Both the position numbers and the translations under genes were made by a program. The notes below the pieces were generated by a model. It was not told the origin of the DNA. It worked only from the letters and a program-made list of their open reading frames with translations, and did no database searches. This document shows, piece after piece, positions 15,936 through 24,672 of a DNA stretch of 48,185 nt. How positions within the stretch are numbered: the stretch's first letter is position 1; each line of letters opens with the position of its first letter. Origin of the DNA: an uncultured Ruminococcus sp. (GTDB taxonomy: Bacteria; Bacillota; Clostridia; Oscillospirales; Acutalibacteraceae); contig CACWOX010000025.1 of NCBI GenBank assembly GCA_902762615.1, positions 1-48,185 on the forward strand. The letters run 5' to 3'.

Positions 15936-16652
15936 ATGAAAGAAAACATCTGTACCATTCCGGTGAATGAGGTATTTGAAGTGCATGACGGCTGCCCGAT
16001 CTGCCGCATGCGCGACCTGATCGAGGCAAAATATATTGATTACATCACAGGTCCCGCCATGATGGAGCCGGATATCCGCATTGAAACCAACCGCGCGGGA
16101 TTCTGCGAACGCCACTTCGGCATGATGCTGACCTCCGGAAGGGCACGGCTGCCTGTGGCACTGACGCTGGAGAGCCATCTCATCGACGTGCGCGAAAAAA
16201 TGCTCTCCAAAAAGCCCGACAAAAAGACCCTTGAGGCAATGGAAACGCTGGAACACAGCTGCTTTGTCTGCGAATACATCGAGCCGCACCTCGCACGCGC
16301 TATCGAAACGGTCTGCCTCAGCTACAAAAACGAGCCGGAATTCCGCAAGCTCTATGAATCCCAGCCCTTCATCTGCCTGCATCACTACCGCATGATCGTG
16401 CAGAATGCCAAAAAGCCGCTCAGCAAGGAATACGATTATTTTGTGGAAGTGACACGCAAACTCGTCAAAAAATACGCCGATTCGCTGCAGGAGGGCATTA
16501 CCCAGTTCCGCGACGCGTTCGATTACCGCAACGCGGGCAAGCCTATGCCTGCCGAAGCACGCACTTCCATCGAAAGCACCATCGAATTCCTCACCTCCCG
16601 CCCCGCCGCCACCCGCAAGGAGCCGGAGAACAAGACCGAGGAACAGAAATAA
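15936..16652 (+). CDS. DUF6062-like Cys/His-rich protein
   Basis: A 238-residue protein with GAAAGGTGATG upstream. Two similar metal-site halves are visible: CPIC (C20, C23) with GFCERHFGMM, and HSCFVCEYI with PFICLHHYRMI. This repeated CxxC...CxxH layout matches what I know as DUF6062, a Clostridia-specific family of unknown function. The middle is helical, and the last 30 residues are charged and low in complexity. It is located alone upstream of the Y-RNA/Ro60 locus. A link to RNA metabolism is not supported beyond proximity. Confidence 0.7.
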   Translation: MKENICTIPVNEVFEVHDGCPICRMRDLIEAKYIDYITGPAMMEPDIRIETNRAGFCERHFGMMLTSGRARLPVALTLESHLIDVREKMLSKKPDKKTLEAMETLEHSCFVCEYIEPHLARAIETVCLSYKNEPEFRKLYESQPFICLHHYRMIVQNAKKPLSKEYDYFVEVTRKLVKKYADSLQEGITQFRDAFDYRNAGKPMPAEARTSIESTIEFLTSRPAATRKEPENKTEEQK

Positions 16653-16694: not shown

Positions 16695-16723
16695 TTGCAT
16701 TATCAGATTGCCTGTGGCATAAT
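16695..16723 (+). promoter_or_regulatory. Promoter of Y RNA 1
   Basis: TTGCAT (16695-16700), 17 bases, then CATAAT (16718-16723). A leader follows with GGAAGG...CCTTCC, then CTTTGATAAT, then the Y RNA. The same TTGCATTATC start and the same leader plan recur before Y RNA 3. Confidence 0.6.
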
Positions 16724-16770
16724 CATATTGGAGGAAGGAACAAACCTTCCCGTCAGCTTTGATAATCCCG

Positions 16771-16901
16771 CACAGCAGTGCAGAATGCGGTTACTTCGTC
16801 TTTTAAACGAGAGGTTGCGGGTTCAAATCCCGCCGGAGCGACAGTCGCTCCGTAGCTCAATCGGTAGAGCGCTAATGTACCGCTTTCGCCTATTCTCTGT
16901 G
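16771..16901 (+). ncRNA. yrlA: Y RNA 1 with a permuted tRNA-like module (YrlA type)
   Basis: Ends: CACAG (16771) pairs with CTGTG (16897-16901). GCGG-T-TAC (16787-16794) pairs with GTACCGC (16877-16883), giving the bulged helix expected for Ro60 binding. In between, tRNA parts follow in permuted order. The anticodon-like arm is TTCGT-CTTTTAA-ACGAG (16795-16811), then a variable loop AGGTT, then T arm GCGGG-TTCAAAT-CCCGC (16817-16833). The 3' acceptor strand CGGAGCG is closed by ACAGT onto the 5' strand CGCTCCG (16846-16852). TA and D arm GCTC-AATCGGTA-GAGC (16855-16870) complete it. The tRNA circle is therefore opened between positions 26 and 27. It stands directly upstream of rsr. It cannot be aminoacylated, because the acceptor has no free end. 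Confidence 0.88.
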
Positions 16902-16931
16902 TGTGATTATATAATAATACAATGAAAACCG

Positions 16932-17064
16932 TACAGCAGTGCAGAACGCGGTTACTTCGTATCAGGTGCCGGAGGCTGCGGGTTCGAGTCCCGTCTGTTC
17001 GTCCGAACAGTAGCTCAAAGGTTCAGAGCGTCGGTGTAAGTCCGCTTTCGACCCATTCTCTGTG
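16932..17064 (+). ncRNA. yrlA: Y RNA 2 with a permuted tRNA-like module (YrlA type)
   Basis: The flanks match Y RNA 1 closely (CAGCAGTGCAGAACGCGGTT at the 5' side, ATTCTCTGTG at the 3' side). TACAG pairs with CTGTG, and GCGG pairs with CCGC. T arm: GCGGG-TTCGAGT-CCCGT (16978-16994). Acceptor: CTGTTC onto GAACAG with a four-base loop GTCC (16995-17010). Then TA and D arm GCTC-AAAGGTTCA-GAGC (17013-17029). The anticodon-like arm is degenerate: CTTCG pairs with CGGAG, but the loop is ten bases. Only 30 bases separate it from Y RNA 1. A TATAAT at 16910 may be its own -10, or both may be cut from one transcript. A terminator follows at 17112. Confidence 0.85.
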
Positions 17065-17111
17065 CGATATTCGTTTCATTTTGATTGTTGTATTTTTATA
17101 TTTTTTTATAA

Positions 17112-17145
17112 TAAAGCCGGGGTCATGTTACGCCCGGTTTTATTA
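17112..17145 (+). terminator. Terminator after Y RNAs 1 and 2
   Basis: CCGGG (17117-17121) pairs with CCCGG (17133-17137), followed by TTTTATTATT. It separates the two tRNA-like Y RNAs from Y RNA 3 and rsr. Confidence 0.7.
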
Positions 17146-17213: not shown

Positions 17214-17241
17214 TTGCATTATCTTTTTATTGTGTTATAAT
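17214..17241 (+). promoter_or_regulatory. Promoter of Y RNA 3 (and probably rsr)
   Basis: TTGCAT (17214-17219), 16 bases, then TATAAT (17236-17241). The leader repeats the plan seen before Y RNA 1: GGAAGG...CTTTCC, then CTTTGATAAT, then ACAGCAG. No terminator is seen before rsr, so read-through is likely. Confidence 0.6.
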
Positions 17242-17290
17242 GTGAAAGCAAGGAAGGCGTTCCGCTTTCCGATGTACTTTGATAATTTCA

Positions 17291-17501
17291 TACAGCAGCG
17301 CAGATGGCGGTTACTTCAAACATATTACGGATTTATAACAAAGATCTCTTTCTGATCTGTTCATCAGAACGTCTGAACTTTTATGCTTTATCAATTATAA
17401 ATGATATAAAAGTCGGTTCGCGCGAACGGTTTTGAGCATCTCTACAATTGAATATTTTTTAAATTTTTTTCTTTTGTCACCGTCGTCGCCCATTCTCTGT
17501 A
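17291..17501 (+). ncRNA. Y RNA 3, divergent and lacking the tRNA module
   Basis: The 5' end ACAGCAGCGCAGATGGCGGT plus TACTTC and the 3' end ACCGTCGTCGCCCATTCTCT plus GTA are the same conserved flanks as in Y RNAs 1 and 2. TACAG pairs with CTGTA, and GGCGGT pairs with ACCGTC, with bulges at the equivalent place. The 160-base interior has no T, D or acceptor arms. It contains other possible hairpins (AGATC...GATCT near 17342, TCTGAT...ATCAGA near 17350, GTTCGCGCGAAC near 17416) and is A/T-rich. It is probably a second class of Ro60 partner with a different effector domain. Confidence 0.7.
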
Positions 17502-17567
17502 TGTGATTATATATTTTTAAATTTTAAAAGAATTCGTATGATGAATCATTCAAAGGAGCTGAGAATC

Positions 17568-19046
17568 ATGGCAAAATTCAATCAGAAAAACACAATCAGG
17601 ACGGAAAACCGCGAAGGCTTTCCCGCCTACCGCATGAAGCTGAAGGAGCGGCTCGTCACGGCTGTGCTGACCACCATGTTCGGTGAGCCTAAATTCTACG
17701 GCTCCACCGATGGCGACGTCGTAAAGCTGGCGACCCAATGCGCCGAAGCCGACCCCGAATTTCTCTGCAAGCTCGCCTGCTACGCCCGCAACGTCGGCAA
17801 TATGCGTTCGGTCAGCCATGTGCTGACCTGCGTCATCGCCCGTGAAGCGCATGAATTCACCCGCAAAACCGTCCGGAATGTGGTGGTGCGACCTGACGAT
17901 ATGACCGAAATTCTCGCCTGCTACAAGCAGATGTACGGCAAGCCCTTCCCCAACGCCCTCAAGCGGGAAATCGCGCAGGTCATGCAGCGCTTTGACGAGT
18001 ACCAGCTTGCCAAGTACAACAGCGGCGGCGCGATGAAGCTGCGCGACGTGCTGCGCATCACCCATCCCGCGCCAAAGGACTCCCAGACCGAGGCGCTTTT
18101 CAGAAAGGTGCTGGACGACACGCTCGAAACGCCCTACACATGGGAAACCGAACTTTCCCAGAAGGGCAACACCAAGGAGGTCTGGAATGAGCTGATCGCC
18201 TCCGACAAGGTGGGCTACATGGCGCTGCTGCGCAACCTGCGCAATATCATTCAAAGCGGCGCGAACGTCACCCCCGTGCTGAAAATTCTCTCTGACCCCG
18301 AACGCGTCAGAAAGAGCCGGCAGCTGCCCTTCCGCTTCTACAGCGCCTATCTCACCCTCCTCGATAAAAACATCCTCAGCGCCAACACCCACCGCGCACT
18401 GGAACAGGCGCTGGAAGTGTCTGTGGAAAACATGGAACAGATTCCCGGAAGGACGCTCATAGCCATCGACGTTTCCGGCTCCATGGGCAGCCGCATCTCT
18501 AAGCGAAGCGAAGTGCGCTGCTGCGACATTGCCTCCCTTCTCGGCGCTATGGCAAGCCGCATCTGCGAGGACGCAACCGTCTGCTATTTCGACGCGGCAG
18601 GCTCCTGGTCTTCCCACGGCAGCAAGGGCTATACAATAAAGCATTACGGCAAGTACGACTCCATCCTCGAAATCTGCAAAAACAGTCGCTTCTACGGCGG
18701 CGGCACACAGATGGATCTGCCGATGAAGTACGCCTTGAATGAGGACGGCAGCCGCGACGTCAAGCCCTTTGACCGCGTGATTTATTTCAGCGACAACGAG
18801 TGCAATGCCTCCTGCGGCGGCATGAACAGAGCCGTACAGGGCATGGCGGAAGAATACCGTTCCAGATACAACCCCAACTTCTGGGTTCACGGCGTCGATA
18901 TACAGGGCTACGGCACACAGCAGTTCTGCGGCGACAGGTTCAACCTCATCGCGGGCTGGAGCGAGAGCGTGCTGCCCTTCATCCATCTCGCGGAAAAGGG
19001 TATCGGCAGCCTTGTCGATGCCATCGGTCAATACACCGTTGCCTGA
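17568..19046 (+). CDS. rsr: Bacterial Ro60 orthologue (Rsr), TROVE-vWA ring protein
   Basis: A 492-residue Ro60-type RNA chaperone from the ATG at 17568, which has AAAGGAG nine bases upstream. An ATG at 17538 is less likely. Residues about 1-275 are the HEAT-like TROVE ring (KLACYARNVGNMRSVSHVLT, KYNSGGAMKLRDVLRITHPA, WNELIASDKVGYMALLRNLR). Residues about 290-490 are a von Willebrand A domain with an intact MIDAS D301-x-S-x-S (IAIDVSGSMGSRIS) and later YFSDNECN. In Deinococcus and Salmonella, Rsr with Y RNA tethers PNPase and acts in rRNA and damaged-RNA turnover. The same role is inferred here. The three Y RNA genes directly upstream strengthen the call. Confidence 0.93.
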   Translation: MAKFNQKNTIRTENREGFPAYRMKLKERLVTAVLTTMFGEPKFYGSTDGDVVKLATQCAEADPEFLCKLACYARNVGNMRSVSHVLTCVIAREAHEFTRKTVRNVVVRPDDMTEILACYKQMYGKPFPNALKREIAQVMQRFDEYQLAKYNSGGAMKLRDVLRITHPAPKDSQTEALFRKVLDDTLETPYTWETELSQKGNTKEVWNELIASDKVGYMALLRNLRNIIQSGANVTPVLKILSDPERVRKSRQLPFRFYSAYLTLLDKNILSANTHRALEQALEVSVENMEQIPGRTLIAIDVSGSMGSRISKRSEVRCCDIASLLGAMASRICEDATVCYFDAAGSWSSHGSKGYTIKHYGKYDSILEICKNSRFYGGGTQMDLPMKYALNEDGSRDVKPFDRVIYFSDNECNASCGGMNRAVQGMAEEYRSRYNPNFWVHGVDIQGYGTQQFCGDRFNLIAGWSESVLPFIHLAEKGIGSLVDAIGQYTVA

Positions 19047-19239: not shown

Positions 19240-22200
19240 TTACGCTTCTTCTTTGCGTGCTCTGAACTGTCTGAGCATGACAAACGAACCTGCCAGCAGC
19301 GAGAGTACAAGCACATTGAGCGCCAGAATGAGAGGCATATCGCTTTCGCCTGTGCCGGGGGATACAATGTTGCCGTTGCTGTCAACCCAGATGGCGTAAA
19401 GTGTCACGTTGCTCTCCGGCATGGTGAAGCTGTCGGTGCCGTCGCCCTTGTATCCGGTGCCTGTGCCATTGGATTTGGTGTTCCATTCCTTGAAGGTGCA
19501 GCCTTCCTTGGTGAGACCTTCCATCTTGGCAACCGTCACGGTTTCTCCGCCGGTGTACTTATTGGAATCGGTGGGTGCTGTACCTTTGGCGCCGTTTGCA
19601 TCGTAGGTGACGGTGAATTCATTGCTTCCCGAATCGGGAGCGTCGTCATAAATGGCGTAAAGAACGGTGTCTTCGTTAATGGTGAATTTATCGCCGGTCT
19701 TGTAGTGCGTGCTGCCGGTCACATCGTTTGCCGATGTGCTCCAGTACTTGAATACCTGATCACCGTTCTTGAGAGAATCGCCGCTTTGCACTGTGACCAG
19801 ATCGCCTGTGCGATGTTCAATCGGCTCCTCCTGATTCGGAACAGCAGACTTCGGAGAACCGCCGTTTGCTTTGTACGTCAGAGTGATCGGTGAGGACTCT
19901 GTCCACTGTGCCTTGAAGGTGATATTGCCGTGGAAACGAACCTTTGTGCCGGGCTCCAGCAAATCTACTGACGGATGGGATGTGTTTCTGTTGGGCTCTG
20001 TTCCGCTGCCGGATGAAGGCATGGAAAGTATCTCGATCAGATCGTTGCCTTCTGCAACTTCCCATGTCTTGATTTCATAGCCGTCCAGATGGAACGGAGG
20101 ATTAAGCTCATTGTTCGCCTTGATGATATAGCCGTTTACATCGTAGACGTCAACCACAAACTGTGTTGTCTGCGTCTGTTCATCAATAAGACCGGAGGAG
20201 TAGGTGACAATTATCTTTGCCTTCCATTTAGCGTAGACGGTAAGAGTAGTGTCGTCGCCGAAATCGGCAAGTGTGACCTTCCTGATCATTTCATCACTGG
20301 TGTATGCCTTGTTGGCGGCATTGCTCCAGCCGATGAAATTATAGTTGTAGGAGTCGGGTCCGCTTGTCGGAAGGGTGTAGCCGTTCCGGAGCTGCTCGCC
20401 CGTAAGCTCTGCCGTTTCGGGTATGCCTGTGATATCCTTCATCTCGTTGTAGAAATCGTCGATCACTACATTGTAGGATTCATGATTATCGGCAAAGATG
20501 AGAGTGTAGGTCGGCTCGGGAATTGCCTCCCACATAGCGGTGGCAACTATCGTCAAAGTGCCGTCCGGGAAGTCCGCGTCCGTGAGGATCGAGTTGACGG
20601 TGTTGTCGTTGAGCTGATCCGCAGGAATTTCAACCGTGACGCTCTTCTTTGCGACGCTCCAGCCAATAAAGGTGTAGCCGTCGGCTGTTGGCTGCTGCGT
20701 GCTGATTCTTACGGTGGAGCCTAAATGCAGGTTGCCGTAGTAATATTGCTCGTCGGAAGGCAGATTGCTTACTGTTGCGGGACCTGTGCCGGGTTTGTAT
20801 TCGACTTGATAGGTCCAGTTGTTCCACTGTGCAACTGCAACTGCTGTCTTACTGCTGTTGTCAAAGGCGCTGAACGGAATGGTTTCGCCCTTGGCGTACT
20901 CAGTGCCGTTCACCAGCCATGACTTGAAGGAATAGCCGGCAACGGTCGGTTCTGTGCTGCTGAGTGCATAGCCGTCCTTGACGGCGGTGTAAGCAAGACC
21001 GCTCTCGTCATCCGGAATTGCCGCTCCTGTTTTGCCGCCGTCCTGATAATCGAGGGCGTAGGTGTTTTCATTCCAGACAGCGTAAAGCGTGGTGTTCTCT
21101 GTGAATTCCTGATTCGCTGCGCCAACGCTGTAGACATGACCCGTGCCGTCGGGATTGGTCGCCCACTTGCCGGCAAAGGTATAGCCCGTGCGGGTGATGG
21201 CGTCAGGCAGATCGGCAATGGTCGCCGTCACCTTGGTATATTCGCTCTTGGTAAGAGAATCAATGATACCTGTAACGCCGTCATTTGCGTCGTATTTCAG
21301 TGTGATTTTATCATTCTCTGTAAATACGCCTGTCAGTGTGACATTCTCGGCAGGCATTGAGAAGGTTCCTGTCAGCAGAACGCCGTCCTTCTTCCAGCCC
21401 TCAAAGGTGTAGCGGGCTGTGTCATATTCGGGAACAGCCCTGGGTGTGACGGTCGCTCCGAACTCCTCGGAATGGCTCGCAGGTGCGTTCCAGCCGTCGG
21501 GCTTGGTACCTGTCACGCTGTAGCTGACCGTGAAGGACTTCTTGGTGAATACGCCGGTCAGCGTGACGCCGGCTGCCGGCATGGTGAAGGAAGTCACGAC
21601 CTCGTCGCCCTTCTTCCAGCCTGTGAATTCATAGCCGGGATAGGAGGTCATATCGGGTGTATCTTCCGCTGTGACGTTGTCGCCGACGAAATAATCCTTG
21701 CTGTCGGTCGGAACGGAATATCCGTCGGGTGCGCCTGTGACGGTATAGGTCACATGGTAAGGAATCTTGGTGAATACGCCTGTCAGTGTGACGTTGGCAG
21801 CCGGCATGGTGAAGGAAGTCACGACCTCGTCGCCCTTCTTCCAGCCCTCGAAGGTGTAGCCGTCAATGTTCGGAACAGCTGCCACGGAAACGCCGTCGCC
21901 TACATAATAGACTTTAGCGTCTGTCGGCGCGGTGTAGCCGGAGGGTGCTCCTTCGACCTCATACGTCACGGAATACGGGAGCTTTTCAAATTCGCCGGTC
22001 AGTGTGACGTTCTCCGCCGGCATGGTGAAGCTGCCGCTCGCGTCAGCGCCGCCCCGCTTCCAGCCTGTGAATTGGTAGCCGGGATACTGGCTCATGTCGG
22101 GTGTGGCTTCTACATTGACCGTGCTGTCTACCTCATACTGTGCGGCAGCCGGCGCGGTGTAGCCGGAAGGTGCGCCTGTGACGGAATAGGTCACAGTGTA

Positions 22201-24672
22201 CTTTTTCTTGGTGAATGTGCCTGTGAACTCGACGTCGTTCTGGGGCATGGTGAACTTGCCGTCTGTCACGGTGACGCCGGAAGGAGTCCAGCCCGCAAAG
22301 GAATATCTGGCGCTGTCGTAATCGGTGCCTGCGACGGGGACGGCTGCAACGGGAATATCGGTCTTGCCCTCGTAGTAGGTCGCGGATCCGGGCGCGGTGT
22401 AGGTAATGTCATCCGAATCGGCAGGCTTGTTTACCGTGTAGGTGACATTGTGGGTGGGAATAGCCTCCCAGTTGGCGGTTGCGGTCGCCTTTTTATCCTC
22501 ATTGTCGAAGCTGCTGAAAGGAACGGCTGCTTCGGCTGCGAATGTGCCGGACTGACCGTTGAGCGTCCAGCCTGTGAAGGTGTAGCCTTCGCGTGTCGGC
22601 TCTTTGCCGGAAAGCTGATAGGCTCCGTCCTTGACGTCGGTGTAGTAAATACCGCTGCTATTGCCGGGCATGTTGCCGACGGTTTCGCCTTCCGGCACAT
22701 TGGCGTTATAGACGAGATTATACTGGAATTCCGTAAAGGTGCCGTAGATCTCAACATCATTGTCAGGCATATTGAACTTGCCGTTCTCGGGCGTTGCGCC
22801 GAATACAGTCCATCCTGTAAAGGAATATCCATCGTAGCTCGGCTTCTCGGCGACGGTCACCTCTGTGTCGAATACAACAGCATTCTGATCGGAAGGCTTT
22901 GTGTATGCTGCGGGCTTTCTGCCGTAGATCCAATACGTTACCTTGTGCTTATTGATCTCCCAGCTTGCCGTAGCCACTGCGGTGGCTGCCTCGTTGTCGA
23001 AGCAGCTGAACGGCACGCCCGTGCTGCTGTCGTAGGCGCCGCCGCCGTTGAGCGTCCAGCCCTTGAAGGTGTAGCCGGTTATCTTGGGCTTAGCGGTGGT
23101 CAGCTTATAATCGCCGTTTTCGACCGCCTCTTTCTCAATATTGCCGACCTCGACAAACGCGCTTTCATTTGTGACAACAAGCGTGTCTTTGGGCTTATTG
23201 AGATCATATTGCAGCGTATAGGTCATGGGTATCGGGAACTGCGCATTCACCGGAACACGCAGCTTGATTACGCCGCCCGATGAGCCGCATGAATAGTTCG
23301 ACGCGGTAAAAAGACCTTTGACCGTGCTTTGAGATCCCAGCGGGAAGGTTTTGCTCTTGTCATTTGACGATTCCCAGCAAACCGCGTCTTCCCATTCATC
23401 ATCGGGAACCGCTTCCGCACTTGCATATTCGGTTCCGCTGTAAGACTGCGGCGTCGGGTAACCGCTTTCCGGCTGGAACTTCATGCTGACGTACAGACCG
23501 TCAAGCAAACATTCGTCGGTATTGTCAAACACATTTTCACTGTGTCCGTTAAGCTCTGTATTTCTCACCATCACTTTGGGGTCAGGAGAAACAACCGAAT
23601 AATCCACATAAACGGTCACCGGCACATACATCATGCTGCTGTCATTCGCATAAGTCATAATGGTACCCGCATCTCCGGGAATGCCAAGAAGACTGCTCAG
23701 CGATTGCGAGGAAATCGGTTTAAGAGTCCCATAATTGACAATATCGCTGTCATTATCAGAATCGTGCAGCACTGCTATATAGCTCTGGCTGCCGGGATTG
23801 GCGCCGTTAGGCGTTATAATCGGAACATTCGTCGCGGAATGATGACTGCTTTCCAACGGCACACGATCGCCGTATTTATAAAAGGTCTTCTCCTTTATGC
23901 CTAAAAAGCTGTAGGTAGCGGATGTAAAATCAAAGCCTGCATCTCTGAGCACAGTTTGACCTGAGCCGCCGGGAAAATAACTGCCTTGATTCTCCCATTC
24001 ATAATATTCTCCGGTGTGATGCACACGCTCACCTTTTGCATCGTACGCACTAACCGATTCCGACGGGGAATAGGTTCCTTCTGCATCGGAGGTATCAAGA
24101 CCAATTTCCTTAATAAAATCACTGACGTCATAGTACGGTAAATAACCGTTGGTCAGGATTTTTTTAAGCGAAGAAGAGTTCTTTATATCGAATGAACCGA
24201 CATAGGTTTCTTCATAATTATCGGTCTCTTCATTATACAAATTCTGGAACGCATAATATCTCTTGCTCGGAAGATCTCCGTTGATTGTGACGGTAGTTTC
24301 CGAATAAGACATATCAGTTGTTCCGTCACCGTCCGAATCATAGGAATTCAGATCAAATGATGCCCCGTCTTTTTTGAACTCGCTGGTGTCCAGCCAATTG
24401 TTGTCGCCGGCATATGTCAGCGTTGCCGACTCCGTGCCTGCCTCGGAACAGTAGACCTGCACAGAAACATCGTCGTCCCATGTCTGCATATAAACGTAAT
24501 TGATGACGGACTGGGAATAGTTGCTGAGAATTTCGTCCGGCACAGCAGGAACGTCGCCGTCGGCAAACGCCTGCATGGCAAACATGGAGCCAATGCCCGC
24601 TACCGCCACCGCTGCCAGCACTGCCAACAGGTTAGACGGCTTTTGGATAAATTGCTTTGCTTTGGTAAGCAT
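19240..24672 (-). CDS. Giant InlB-repeat cell-surface protein with sortase-like tail
   Basis: An 1810-residue secreted protein. The signal peptide (LLAVLAAVAVAGIGSMFAMQ, cleavage probably after AFA near residue 38) is followed by a unique region to about residue 480. Then come some 15 units with the GYxFxGW strand of Listeria-Bacteroides (InlB B / flg_new) repeats, several with TMPAxNVTLTGxF endings. The C-terminus has SPGTGESD, a membrane helix PLILALNVLVLSLLAGSFVM and RARKEEA. That is the layout of an LPxTG-type anchor with SPGTG in place of LPxTG. Adhesion or carbohydrate contact is likely but unproven. AAAGGAGG precedes the ATG. The gene lies just downstream of the LRR-sigma gene on the same strand and may be its target. 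Confidence 0.85.
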   Translation of the reverse strand: MLTKAKQFIQKPSNLLAVLAAVAVAGIGSMFAMQAFADGDVPAVPDEILSNYSQSVINYVYMQTWDDDVSVQVYCSEAGTESATLTYAGDNNWLDTSEFKKDGASFDLNSYDSDGDGTTDMSYSETTVTINGDLPSKRYYAFQNLYNEETDNYEETYVGSFDIKNSSSLKKILTNGYLPYYDVSDFIKEIGLDTSDAEGTYSPSESVSAYDAKGERVHHTGEYYEWENQGSYFPGGSGQTVLRDAGFDFTSATYSFLGIKEKTFYKYGDRVPLESSHHSATNVPIITPNGANPGSQSYIAVLHDSDNDSDIVNYGTLKPISSQSLSSLLGIPGDAGTIMTYANDSSMMYVPVTVYVDYSVVSPDPKVMVRNTELNGHSENVFDNTDECLLDGLYVSMKFQPESGYPTPQSYSGTEYASAEAVPDDEWEDAVCWESSNDKSKTFPLGSQSTVKGLFTASNYSCGSSGGVIKLRVPVNAQFPIPMTYTLQYDLNKPKDTLVVTNESAFVEVGNIEKEAVENGDYKLTTAKPKITGYTFKGWTLNGGGAYDSSTGVPFSCFDNEAATAVATASWEINKHKVTYWIYGRKPAAYTKPSDQNAVVFDTEVTVAEKPSYDGYSFTGWTVFGATPENGKFNMPDNDVEIYGTFTEFQYNLVYNANVPEGETVGNMPGNSSGIYYTDVKDGAYQLSGKEPTREGYTFTGWTLNGQSGTFAAEAAVPFSSFDNEDKKATATANWEAIPTHNVTYTVNKPADSDDITYTAPGSATYYEGKTDIPVAAVPVAGTDYDSARYSFAGWTPSGVTVTDGKFTMPQNDVEFTGTFTKKKYTVTYSVTGAPSGYTAPAAAQYEVDSTVNVEATPDMSQYPGYQFTGWKRGGADASGSFTMPAENVTLTGEFEKLPYSVTYEVEGAPSGYTAPTDAKVYYVGDGVSVAAVPNIDGYTFEGWKKGDEVVTSFTMPAANVTLTGVFTKIPYHVTYTVTGAPDGYSVPTDSKDYFVGDNVTAEDTPDMTSYPGYEFTGWKKGDEVVTSFTMPAAGVTLTGVFTKKSFTVSYSVTGTKPDGWNAPASHSEEFGATVTPRAVPEYDTARYTFEGWKKDGVLLTGTFSMPAENVTLTGVFTENDKITLKYDANDGVTGIIDSLTKSEYTKVTATIADLPDAITRTGYTFAGKWATNPDGTGHVYSVGAANQEFTENTTLYAVWNENTYALDYQDGGKTGAAIPDDESGLAYTAVKDGYALSSTEPTVAGYSFKSWLVNGTEYAKGETIPFSAFDNSSKTAVAVAQWNNWTYQVEYKPGTGPATVSNLPSDEQYYYGNLHLGSTVRISTQQPTADGYTFIGWSVAKKSVTVEIPADQLNDNTVNSILTDADFPDGTLTIVATAMWEAIPEPTYTLIFADNHESYNVVIDDFYNEMKDITGIPETAELTGEQLRNGYTLPTSGPDSYNYNFIGWSNAANKAYTSDEMIRKVTLADFGDDTTLTVYAKWKAKIIVTYSSGLIDEQTQTTQFVVDVYDVNGYIIKANNELNPPFHLDGYEIKTWEVAEGNDLIEILSMPSSGSGTEPNRNTSHPSVDLLEPGTKVRFHGNITFKAQWTESSPITLTYKANGGSPKSAVPNQEEPIEHRTGDLVTVQSGDSLKNGDQVFKYWSTSANDVTGSTHYKTGDKFTINEDTVLYAIYDDAPDSGSNEFTVTYDANGAKGTAPTDSNKYTGGETVTVAKMEGLTKEGCTFKEWNTKSNGTGTGYKGDGTDSFTMPESNVTLYAIWVDSNGNIVSPGTGESDMPLILALNVLVLSLLAGSFVMLRQFRARKEEA

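Follow-up and report, generated by a model that had tools for sequence, protein, structure and literature searches.

In Deinococcus-type Y RNAs and in YrlB a Ro60-linked Y stem is present without a tRNA core, and in the permuted tRNA genes of algae and archaea the 3' half of the tRNA is placed before the 5' half. YrlA (RF02553; 6CU1, the Salmonella RNA) is the described system closest to the RNAs reported here. In YrlA a T arm, a sealed acceptor stem, the dinucleotide TA and a D arm follow one another, the two ends of the RNA form a Y stem, the RNA is associated with a Ro60 (Rsr) gene, and the Rfam consensus has an anticodon stem that is opened into the Y stem, with no anticodon loop. A permuted superposition of 6CU1 on tRNA has been published (PMC11472068). 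For other Y RNAs, PMC8394870 and PMC7790460 describe a stem that is bound by Ro60 and an effector end that tethers PNPase; the tRNA-like end of YrlA is described as modified by DusA and TruB, and D, pseudouridine and PNPase binding are reported for YrlA RNAs (PMC8394870).

We analyzed a window of 48,185 nucleotides from an uncultured Ruminococcus sp. (contig CACWOX010000025.1), in which three RNAs, here called RNA1, RNA2 and RNA3, precede a Ro60 gene. RNA1 and RNA2 share with YrlA the order T arm, sealed acceptor, TA and D arm, the Y stem formed by the two ends, and the association with Ro60, and both score below the Rfam cut-off for YrlA. RNA2 further agrees with the Rfam model in its opened anticodon stem; it follows the ordinary YrlA plan (type II), a class already known. 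RNA1, in contrast, is judged from its sequence to be a variant with a whole anticodon arm (type I), the Y helix apparently entering between tRNA positions 28 and 29, a layout absent from Rfam's YrlA model. A literature search in sources other than the primary YrlA papers (Chen 2014, Wang 2018, Sim and Wolin 2018) returned no description of an anticodon arm in a Y RNA, and a prior description of the RNA1-type layout in print is possible. The window RNAs resemble the algal and archaeal permuted tRNA genes in that the 3' half comes first; however, their acceptor is sealed by a few bases, the other joint is a long Y helix, and, unlike the permuted genes, they give no sign of tRNA release. Tandem tRNA genes have the same element order across their junction and match the same covariance models, but they possess neither a Y stem nor a Ro60 gene, and their acceptor strands come from two tRNAs.

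A first-pass annotation of this DNA had read RNA1 and RNA2 as mimics of tRNA, circularly permuted like YrlA and linked to Ro60. This core reading holds; the accompanying assumption that the two are built alike does not, as they represent two architectures. The RNAs of this locus are almost certainly Ro60-linked Y RNAs, whereas binding by Ro60 itself is presumed by analogy. The explanation that we find best, and consider likely, is a locus with one Ro60 and three Y RNAs, two of which carry permuted, sealed tRNA bodies. What sequence comparison shows is a permuted tRNA fold with a composite anticodon stem and a tertiary 15-48 pair, a Y stem, and linkage to Ro60.

Organization of the Ro60 Locus

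The features of the locus, all on the plus strand, are as follows.

15936 to 16652, plus strand: DUF6062 family gene, the upstream neighbor (PF19538, 217 bits)
16695 to 16723, plus strand: possible promoter of RNA1 and RNA2, as read from the sequence (TTGCAT-17-CATAAT)
16762 to 16910, plus strand: RNA1, type I: Y RNA with a tRNA-like core and a whole anticodon arm (sequence, arm scan, folding, comparison)
16920 to 17080 (outer limits approximate), plus strand: RNA2, type II: Y RNA with a tRNA-like core and an opened anticodon stem, Rfam YrlA plan
17110 to 17144, plus strand: possible terminator after RNA2, as read from the sequence (12-bp stem, 11-nt loop, T-rich 3' side)
17214 to 17241, plus strand: possible promoter of RNA3's own, as read from the sequence (TTGCAT-16-TATAAT)
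17282 to 17510, plus strand: RNA3, third Y RNA, 229 nt, with the same Y stem, no tRNA core and two small GUUC-N4-GAAC hairpins
17568 to 19046, plus strand: Ro60/Rsr gene, 492 aa, TROVE and vWA_Ro60 domains

In a profile search the Ro60 gene matched TROVE (PF05731, 122 bits) and vWA_Ro60 (PF25045, 37 bits); the genome has two TROVE matches, both inside this frame. The gap of about 0.9 kb between the DUF6062 gene, which is not thought to be part of the RNP, and the Ro60 gene holds three Y RNA units. The first-pass annotation had counted two Ro60-linked Y RNAs; RNA1 and RNA2 do adjoin the gene with the TROVE and vWA_Ro60 domains, but RNA3 at 17282-17510 had been overlooked. All three units have (C)AYACAGCAG-GCAG..GCGGUUACUUC at the 5' end and AUUCUCUGURUG at the 3' end.

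Boxes resembling the possible promoter at 16695-16723 precede the first Y RNA in several relatives. A consensus promoter scan returned 6 promoter-like sites where 2.6 were expected, with neither 16695-16723 nor 17214-17241 among them. The corresponding terminator scan returned 1 site (0.9 expected); the putative terminator at 17110-17144 is absent from its list because the loop exceeds the length that the scan permits. RNA1 and RNA3 are each preceded by a small GGAAGG...CCTTCC-like hairpin (16732-16750 and 17252-17270), which lies downstream of the possible promoter and ahead of the Y stem, and hairpins of a similar kind are also found in the related loci L005, L006 and L007. Behind the Ro60 gene, on the minus strand, an open frame of 1810 aa with repeated modules spans 19240-24672; by eye, the repeats look like InlB-type beta-repeats.

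The Anticodon Stem of RNA1 and Related Cores

RNA1 and RNA2 were dissected with an arm-finding script, which seeks a T arm, a sealed acceptor hairpin and a D arm, and by folding and comparison. The elements of RNA1 are:

16762 to 16775, plus strand: Y stem, 5' strand, complementary to 16897-16910 save at one position
16797 to 16809, plus strand: inner anticodon stem (29-31 with 39-41) and loop CTTTTAA (32-38, anticodon UUU); the local strand covaries with 39-41 in 70 cores
16810 to 16811, plus strand: tRNA positions 42-43, predicted to pair with 16872-16873 from covariation with the strand after the D arm in 70 cores
16817 to 16833, plus strand: T arm (arm scan, folding)
16834 to 16852, plus strand: sealed acceptor stem, 8 bp, 3-nt loop CAG (arm scan, folding)
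16855 to 16870, plus strand: D arm (arm scan, folding)
16872 to 16873, plus strand: tRNA positions 27-28, outer anticodon stem, D side (comparison of cores)
16897 to 16910, plus strand: Y stem, 3' strand, partner of 16762-16775

Those of RNA2 are:

16968 to 16972, plus strand: anticodon stem, 3' strand (39-43), pairing with 17031-17035
16978 to 16994, plus strand: T arm (arm-finding script)
16995 to 17010, plus strand: sealed acceptor stem (arm-finding script, folding), 7 bp with a 2-nt loop or 6 bp with 4 nt
17013 to 17029, plus strand: D arm (arm-finding script)
17031 to 17035, plus strand: anticodon stem, 5' strand (27-31), from the D side

The script found the hairpin TTCGT-CTTTTAA-ACGAG in the place of the anticodon arm of RNA1 and no closing stem after its D arm; of the closing stem of the YrlA plan, only the two outer pairs come from the D side in RNA1. 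RNA2 has no anticodon hairpin and does have a closing stem after the D arm (TGCCGG/TCGGTG), its anticodon stem (GCCGG with TCGGU) being the helix that leads into the Y stem, as in the Rfam YrlA consensus. The arm order that had been ascribed to both RNAs is thus correct for T arm, sealed acceptor, TA and D arm, but the anticodon-like arm belongs to RNA1 only.

RNA1 folds better than its shuffled versions (z -3.69, 0 of 200 as good), and its split structure, at -45.2 kcal/mol against a minimum of -51.6, is disfavored relative to the local hairpin by energy alone. RNA2 alone folds no better than shuffled sequences (z -0.51, 53 of 200 as good), and here too energy alone favors another fold (-40.0 kcal/mol for the YrlA-plan structure, -43.0 for the minimum). 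We therefore rejected energy folding, which favors other pairings, as a judge. In RNA1 taken singly, positions 42-43 can pair either way, and comparison alone decides.

For this comparison we scanned for permuted T, acceptor and D arms together with TAA at 36-38, ignoring the anticodon stem. Scan matches that overlapped an ARAGORN tRNA by more than 20 nt (53 of 229) were removed, and 114 distinct cores passed further filters; the type I comparison rests on 70 distinct cores. Because A14, A21 and the pairing of the T, acceptor and D stems were preconditions of the scan, they are not independent evidence. In the 70 cores, the strand on the D side pairs at 27-43 in 91% and at 28-42 in 96% (68 and 47% in shuffled controls; both 0 of 2000 as high), whereas for 29-41, 30-40 and 31-39 it pairs in 41, 21 and 54%, against 40, 17 and 44% when shuffled. 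The local strand behaves the opposite way: it pairs at 29-41, 30-40 and 31-39 in 90, 91 and 87% (shuffled 66, 49 and 41%; 0 of 2000), while its pairing at 27-43 is 76% (shuffled 75%) and at 28-42 slightly above the shuffled level (69 versus 62%, 16 of 2000 as high). The 32 cores outside the loci fetched with the TAA pattern agree (88, 94, 88, 88 and 81% for the five pairs). A perfect fit to a stem split into two and three pairs is found in 54 of the 70 cores, the other 16 deviating from it. Alignment A1, which comprises 32 type I cores, has 43-27 and 42-28 formed with the D-side strand in every row, with three double changes at 42-28, and no double changes at 42 and 43 against the local strand. 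An alignment of the 54 perfect cores (A3) has double changes at 16 of 20 pairs; 98.9% of its cells pair, which follows from the selection of its cores.

The anticodon stem of RNA1-type cores is therefore very probably composite, with 27-43 and 28-42 contributed from the D side and 29-41 to 31-39 formed locally. The Y helix would then be inserted between tRNA positions 28 and 29. The first-pass annotation had placed the joint between the D arm and the anticodon arm; we rejected this position, as the partner of 42 and 43 is the strand that follows the D arm, and comparison puts the joint of RNA1 inside the anticodon stem, at 28/29. ARAGORN calls on rotated cores were discarded as a judge of the joint, since 69, 68 and 61 of the 70 cores were called tRNAs for joints at 28|29, 26|27 and 31|32, respectively.

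The Y-type helix said to join the two ends is borne out: its two strands flank the arms of both RNAs, and the stem covaries in the clade, the inner seven pairs of the RNA1 stem among them. Twenty distinct stems are paired at 96% of positions (71% when shuffled, 0 of 2000), a count in which pairing is partly imposed, as strand ends were picked by complementarity with at least 6 of 7 pairs. Compensatory changes among relatives, named earlier as the check on the stems, are present in the anticodon stem, the Y stem and the 15-48 pair. The scan set no condition on this Levitt pair; GC or AU is found there in 67 of the 70 type I cores (53% when shuffled, 0 of 5000), as well as in 18 of 22 type II cores. 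A purine occupies position 26 in 68 of the 70 type I cores, and 56 have a variable loop of 5 nt.

An alternative explanation is that both RNAs are ordinary members of YrlA and that the hairpin of RNA1 is an inserted stem unrelated to a tRNA anticodon arm. The arm order is indeed the same, and YrlA is the best Rfam match. The local UUC of the RNA1 hairpin also falls in the motif GGUUACUUC, which is common to Y RNAs without a tRNA core; the local strand is thus not there for the hairpin alone, and the UUC may only seem to be part of it. However, the hairpin has tRNA dimensions, with a 7-nt loop, a 5-bp composite stem, purine 26 and a 5-nt variable loop; its inner and outer pairs covary each with their own strand; and Rfam's model contains no anticodon hairpin element. 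Moreover, such a hairpin (at least 4 bp, a 7-nt loop and no closing stem that is longer) is present in 22 of 63 cores from loci that were fetched by a pattern lacking TAA, with U33 in 20, U36 in 20, A37 in 21 and A38 in 21 of them, the other positions being free. We consider it unlikely that the hairpin is a mere insertion.

Anticodon Loop, Linkage to Ro60, and Occurrence in Phages

The sequence U36A37A38 is described as a universal determinant of t6A enzymes (PMC9654439), and U36, A37 and A38 as required in mitochondria (PMC7102964). Ordinary tRNAs of the same loci have it in 407 of 1382 distinct sequences (29%). The loop would make RNA1 a substrate of the t6A enzymes, and we tentatively predict that RNA1 may be t6A-modified. 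The commonest anticodons in the 70 TAA-selected cores are GUU (15), UUU (12), UGU (11), GCU (9), CUU (6) and UCU (5), and the anticodon varies among close relatives.

Protein homology identified 18 Ro60 loci, 14 of which keep at least 800 nt upstream. The association with Y RNAs is not due to chance, because all 14 of these upstream regions contain the Y-stem motif and 11 contain a tRNA-like core. A tblastn match to the window's Ro60 is present in the loci of 58 of the 70 cores; each of these 58 has the same orientation as the match, and 53 are upstream of it, with a median distance of 231 nt. TROVE itself is sparsely distributed, being found in 11 of 398 genomes of the family and 10 of 398 genomes of the phylum, the window's own genome included in each, and in 418 of 50,697 phage records. 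A search of viral contigs with the window's Ro60 protein as query found no relative.

The layout is not special to this lineage, as it also occurs in viral contigs and named phages. Viral cores lie in a locus with Ro60 in 21 of 26 cases for type I, 5 of 17 for type II, 27 of 40 for unassigned cores and 1 of 2 for those assigned to both, many of the contigs spanning only a few kb; at least 120 stretches entered each scan of viral contigs, and the counts are no measure of prevalence. Among the named records that were fetched, Y-type motifs precede TROVE in Xanthomonas phage 10KY502B (five), Olaya (four), Gordonia phage Trax (four), Rhizobium phage RHph_TM21B (three) and a Deinococcus gobiensis plasmid (two), and lie behind TROVE in crAss-like phage PhiCrAssBcn17 and Thermus phage phiLo (two each). 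Before TROVE, no Y motif was recognized in Vibrio phage pv27, Thermus phage phiLo, Mycobacterium phage EmToTheThree and LR745206.1.

Two tRNA genes annotated in phage genomes overlap type I cores: a tRNA-Thr of 10KY502B (loop CTTGTAA) and a tRNA-Ser of Brevundimonas phage Kikimora (loop CTGCTAA). These two features lie directly before TROVE genes, at 1328-1395 of locus L370 (OQ622092.1) and 1293-1367 of locus L374 (ON529857.1), respectively. If the type I reading is right, these labels call for correction of the annotation. Such arrays in cultured phages, for example Caulobacter phage CcrColossus and Kikimora, make experiments possible.

The whole anticodon arm, the class-specific loop and the many phage copies could also mean that type I RNAs are decoys, in which the Ro60 particle, chiefly in phages, offers a sealed tRNA of the ANN class to anticodon nucleases or tRNA-binding proteins. 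A role of YrlA as competitive inhibitor of a nuclease is proposed as a possibility in PMC7790460, where YrlA is, however, also reported as uncut by the nuclease. Positions 34-35 vary, so that no single tRNA is copied, and no nuclease is known here. As the explanation for type I RNAs we regard the decoy role as improbable; it is compatible with a tether, and the two are not exclusive.

Sealing Loop and Similarity to Functional tRNA

Rotated into tRNA order, RNA1 is called a 73-nt tRNA-Lys(UUU) by ARAGORN. The same is true in general: 69 of the 70 rotated cores are called tRNAs, compared with 20-28 of 70 when halves of different cores are combined, and none of the 70 unrotated cores, a zero that is partly due to the prior removal of cores overlapping ARAGORN tRNAs. 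One could assume from this normal-length tRNA-Lys that RNA1 is a real permuted tRNA gene whose transcript is cut open in the acceptor loop and, after joining across the Y helix, serves in translation. The sealing loop is CCA or ACCAC in 5 of the 70 cores, all from part of the Ruminococcus clade (L004, L006, L008, L009 and L012). However, the loop of RNA1 has no CCA, those of close relatives are CAG, CTT, CTA or TCA instead, and in most phage copies the seal is a different loop, in some cases UUCG- or GNRA-like. We also considered the encoded CCA as a working 3' end or an RNase P signal and rejected it; with only 5 of 70 cores involved, drift is more likely. The anticodon drifts among relatives, whereas the Y stem and the linkage to Ro60 are conserved, and the genome has 41 other tRNA matches; those checked, from 17 of 30 fetched loci, include normal tRNAs for Lys (UUU and CUU), Asn, Thr and Arg (UCU). 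A translational role of RNA1 is therefore very improbable.

Covariance Model Scores and Tandem tRNA Genes

The window RNAs do not have the canonical arm order of tRNA genes (5' acceptor, D, anticodon, T, 3' acceptor). They had been expected to escape tRNA searches, and ARAGORN indeed reports 0 tRNA genes in the window; the Rfam tRNA model, however, matches 16769-16841 at 29.6 bits, just above its cut-off of 29. This match covers half of RNA1 and takes the Y stem as the acceptor, with mismatches. The covariance search with the YrlA model that had been recommended gave 39.9 bits for RNA1 and 34.2 for RNA2 (model positions 23-85 of 114), well below the gathering cut-off of 69. YrlA is the best Rfam match, but scores of this size are also obtained for tandem tRNA genes and so have no diagnostic value by themselves. 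None of the 12 viral loci with such RNAs or candidates reaches the cut-off. At an E-value of 1e-3 the model matches 192 of 299 Bacillota genomes, none above the cut-off, and 6 of 14 control genomes; the best control match inspected was a run of tRNA-Asn genes. The Rfam YrlA score was accordingly rejected as proof.

Our own covariance model, R1, has the same weakness. It matches 396 of 398 genomes at 1e-5, and tandem tRNAs score up to 74.7 bits, above several true cases linked to Ro60 (69.0-69.6 bits). RNA1 is the best match of R1, at 86.9 bits, and had contributed to the model via L001. We rejected R1 as a detector, since only position beside TROVE separates true cases from tandem tRNAs; such a match lies beside TROVE in at least 5 of the 9 other TROVE-positive genomes (G502, G400, G790, G773 and G463), with a stop in the TROVE frame of G400. 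Where two tRNA genes stand in tandem, the arms across their junction follow one another as in a permuted tRNA, and for this reason both YrlA and R1 scores mislead. Identification rests on the Y stem, Ro60 and covariation, not on model scores.

The matching arm order suggests that the module may have been derived from a piece of a tandem tRNA array. That the RNAs are nothing but role-less debris of tandem tRNA genes left beside Ro60, which would account for the shared order and the matches to the YrlA model and R1 (396 of 398 genomes), is hardly credible in view of the compensatory changes in stem and tertiary pairs, the recurrent place before Ro60 on the same strand, and a Y stem common to Y RNAs that do not resemble tRNA.

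Other Y RNA Modules

Between one and five Y RNAs are found per locus in relatives, with modules of several kinds: type I, type II, RNA3-like, short, T-arm-only and a 189-nt form. In six loci a type I core and a type II core occur together. Like Deinococcus-type Y RNAs and YrlB, RNA3 and the short Y RNAs of relatives have a Y stem and no tRNA core; RNA3 differs from these in a module of its own, on the scale of 150 nt, with the two GUUC-N4-GAAC hairpins. RNA3-like RNAs occur in the window and in L005, L006, L008 and L009, and the common Y stem and the two hairpins were recognized in an alignment of only these 5 sequences, all from Ruminococcus-clade loci.

The short Y RNAs, of about 85-90 nt, lie at about 3493-3580 of L006, 3296-3383 of L007 and 251-338 of L009, and their terminal loops are near-identical (UUCGUAUUUCAUAGGUACA.AAGAC). 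Apparent T-arm-only Y RNAs are present in L035 (about 878-976) and, on the reverse strand, in L039; similar copies lie behind TROVE in crAss-like phage PhiCrAssBcn17 (L372, about 3155 and 3396). L035 (about 983-1172) and L039 (reverse strand) also contain the 189-nt Y RNA, whose inner sequence, GUGGGUACAGGCCCGUCC..GCAGACCGAC, is conserved and unlike every other module described here.

Possible Function and Implications

The locus would yield one Ro60 protein and three Y RNAs that have a Ro60-type stem in common and display different ends. RNA1 would display a complete tRNA body, its acceptor sealed by the three-base loop and its chain cut between 28 and 29; RNA2 a tRNA body without the anticodon loop; and RNA3 a different module. 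Ro60 is expected to bind the Y stem, as it does in the Y RNAs studied by others, and the sealed end should block CCA addition, aminoacylation and use in translation. The tRNA-shaped end may then tether Ro60 to a tRNA-recognizing protein, in the first place PNPase, as in RYPER, or else a tRNA-modifying enzyme. By analogy with other Y RNAs, a tether to PNPase or another tRNA-binding protein is a plausible role and the one we favor, although we propose it with some reserve.

A broader and more speculative proposal is that the Ro60 of many phages and some bacteria carries a second, hitherto undescribed tRNA-mimicking Y RNA besides YrlA: a complete but sealed tRNA of the ANN-decoding class with the Y helix between 28 and 29, t6A-modified, that shows the whole tRNA surface to tRNA-handling proteins as a tether, a decoy or both. 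It would be paired regularly with an anticodon-less YrlA and with Y RNAs unlike tRNA, as exchangeable modules on one Ro60. Rfam's YrlA model misses type I, while tandem tRNA genes score as high. If the proposal is correct, two permutation points of one fold adjoin in one operon, and the search for partners narrows to proteins that read whole tRNAs, with t6A and TsaD binding as the direct test. The mimicry of tRNA by Y RNAs would then extend to the anticodon arm.
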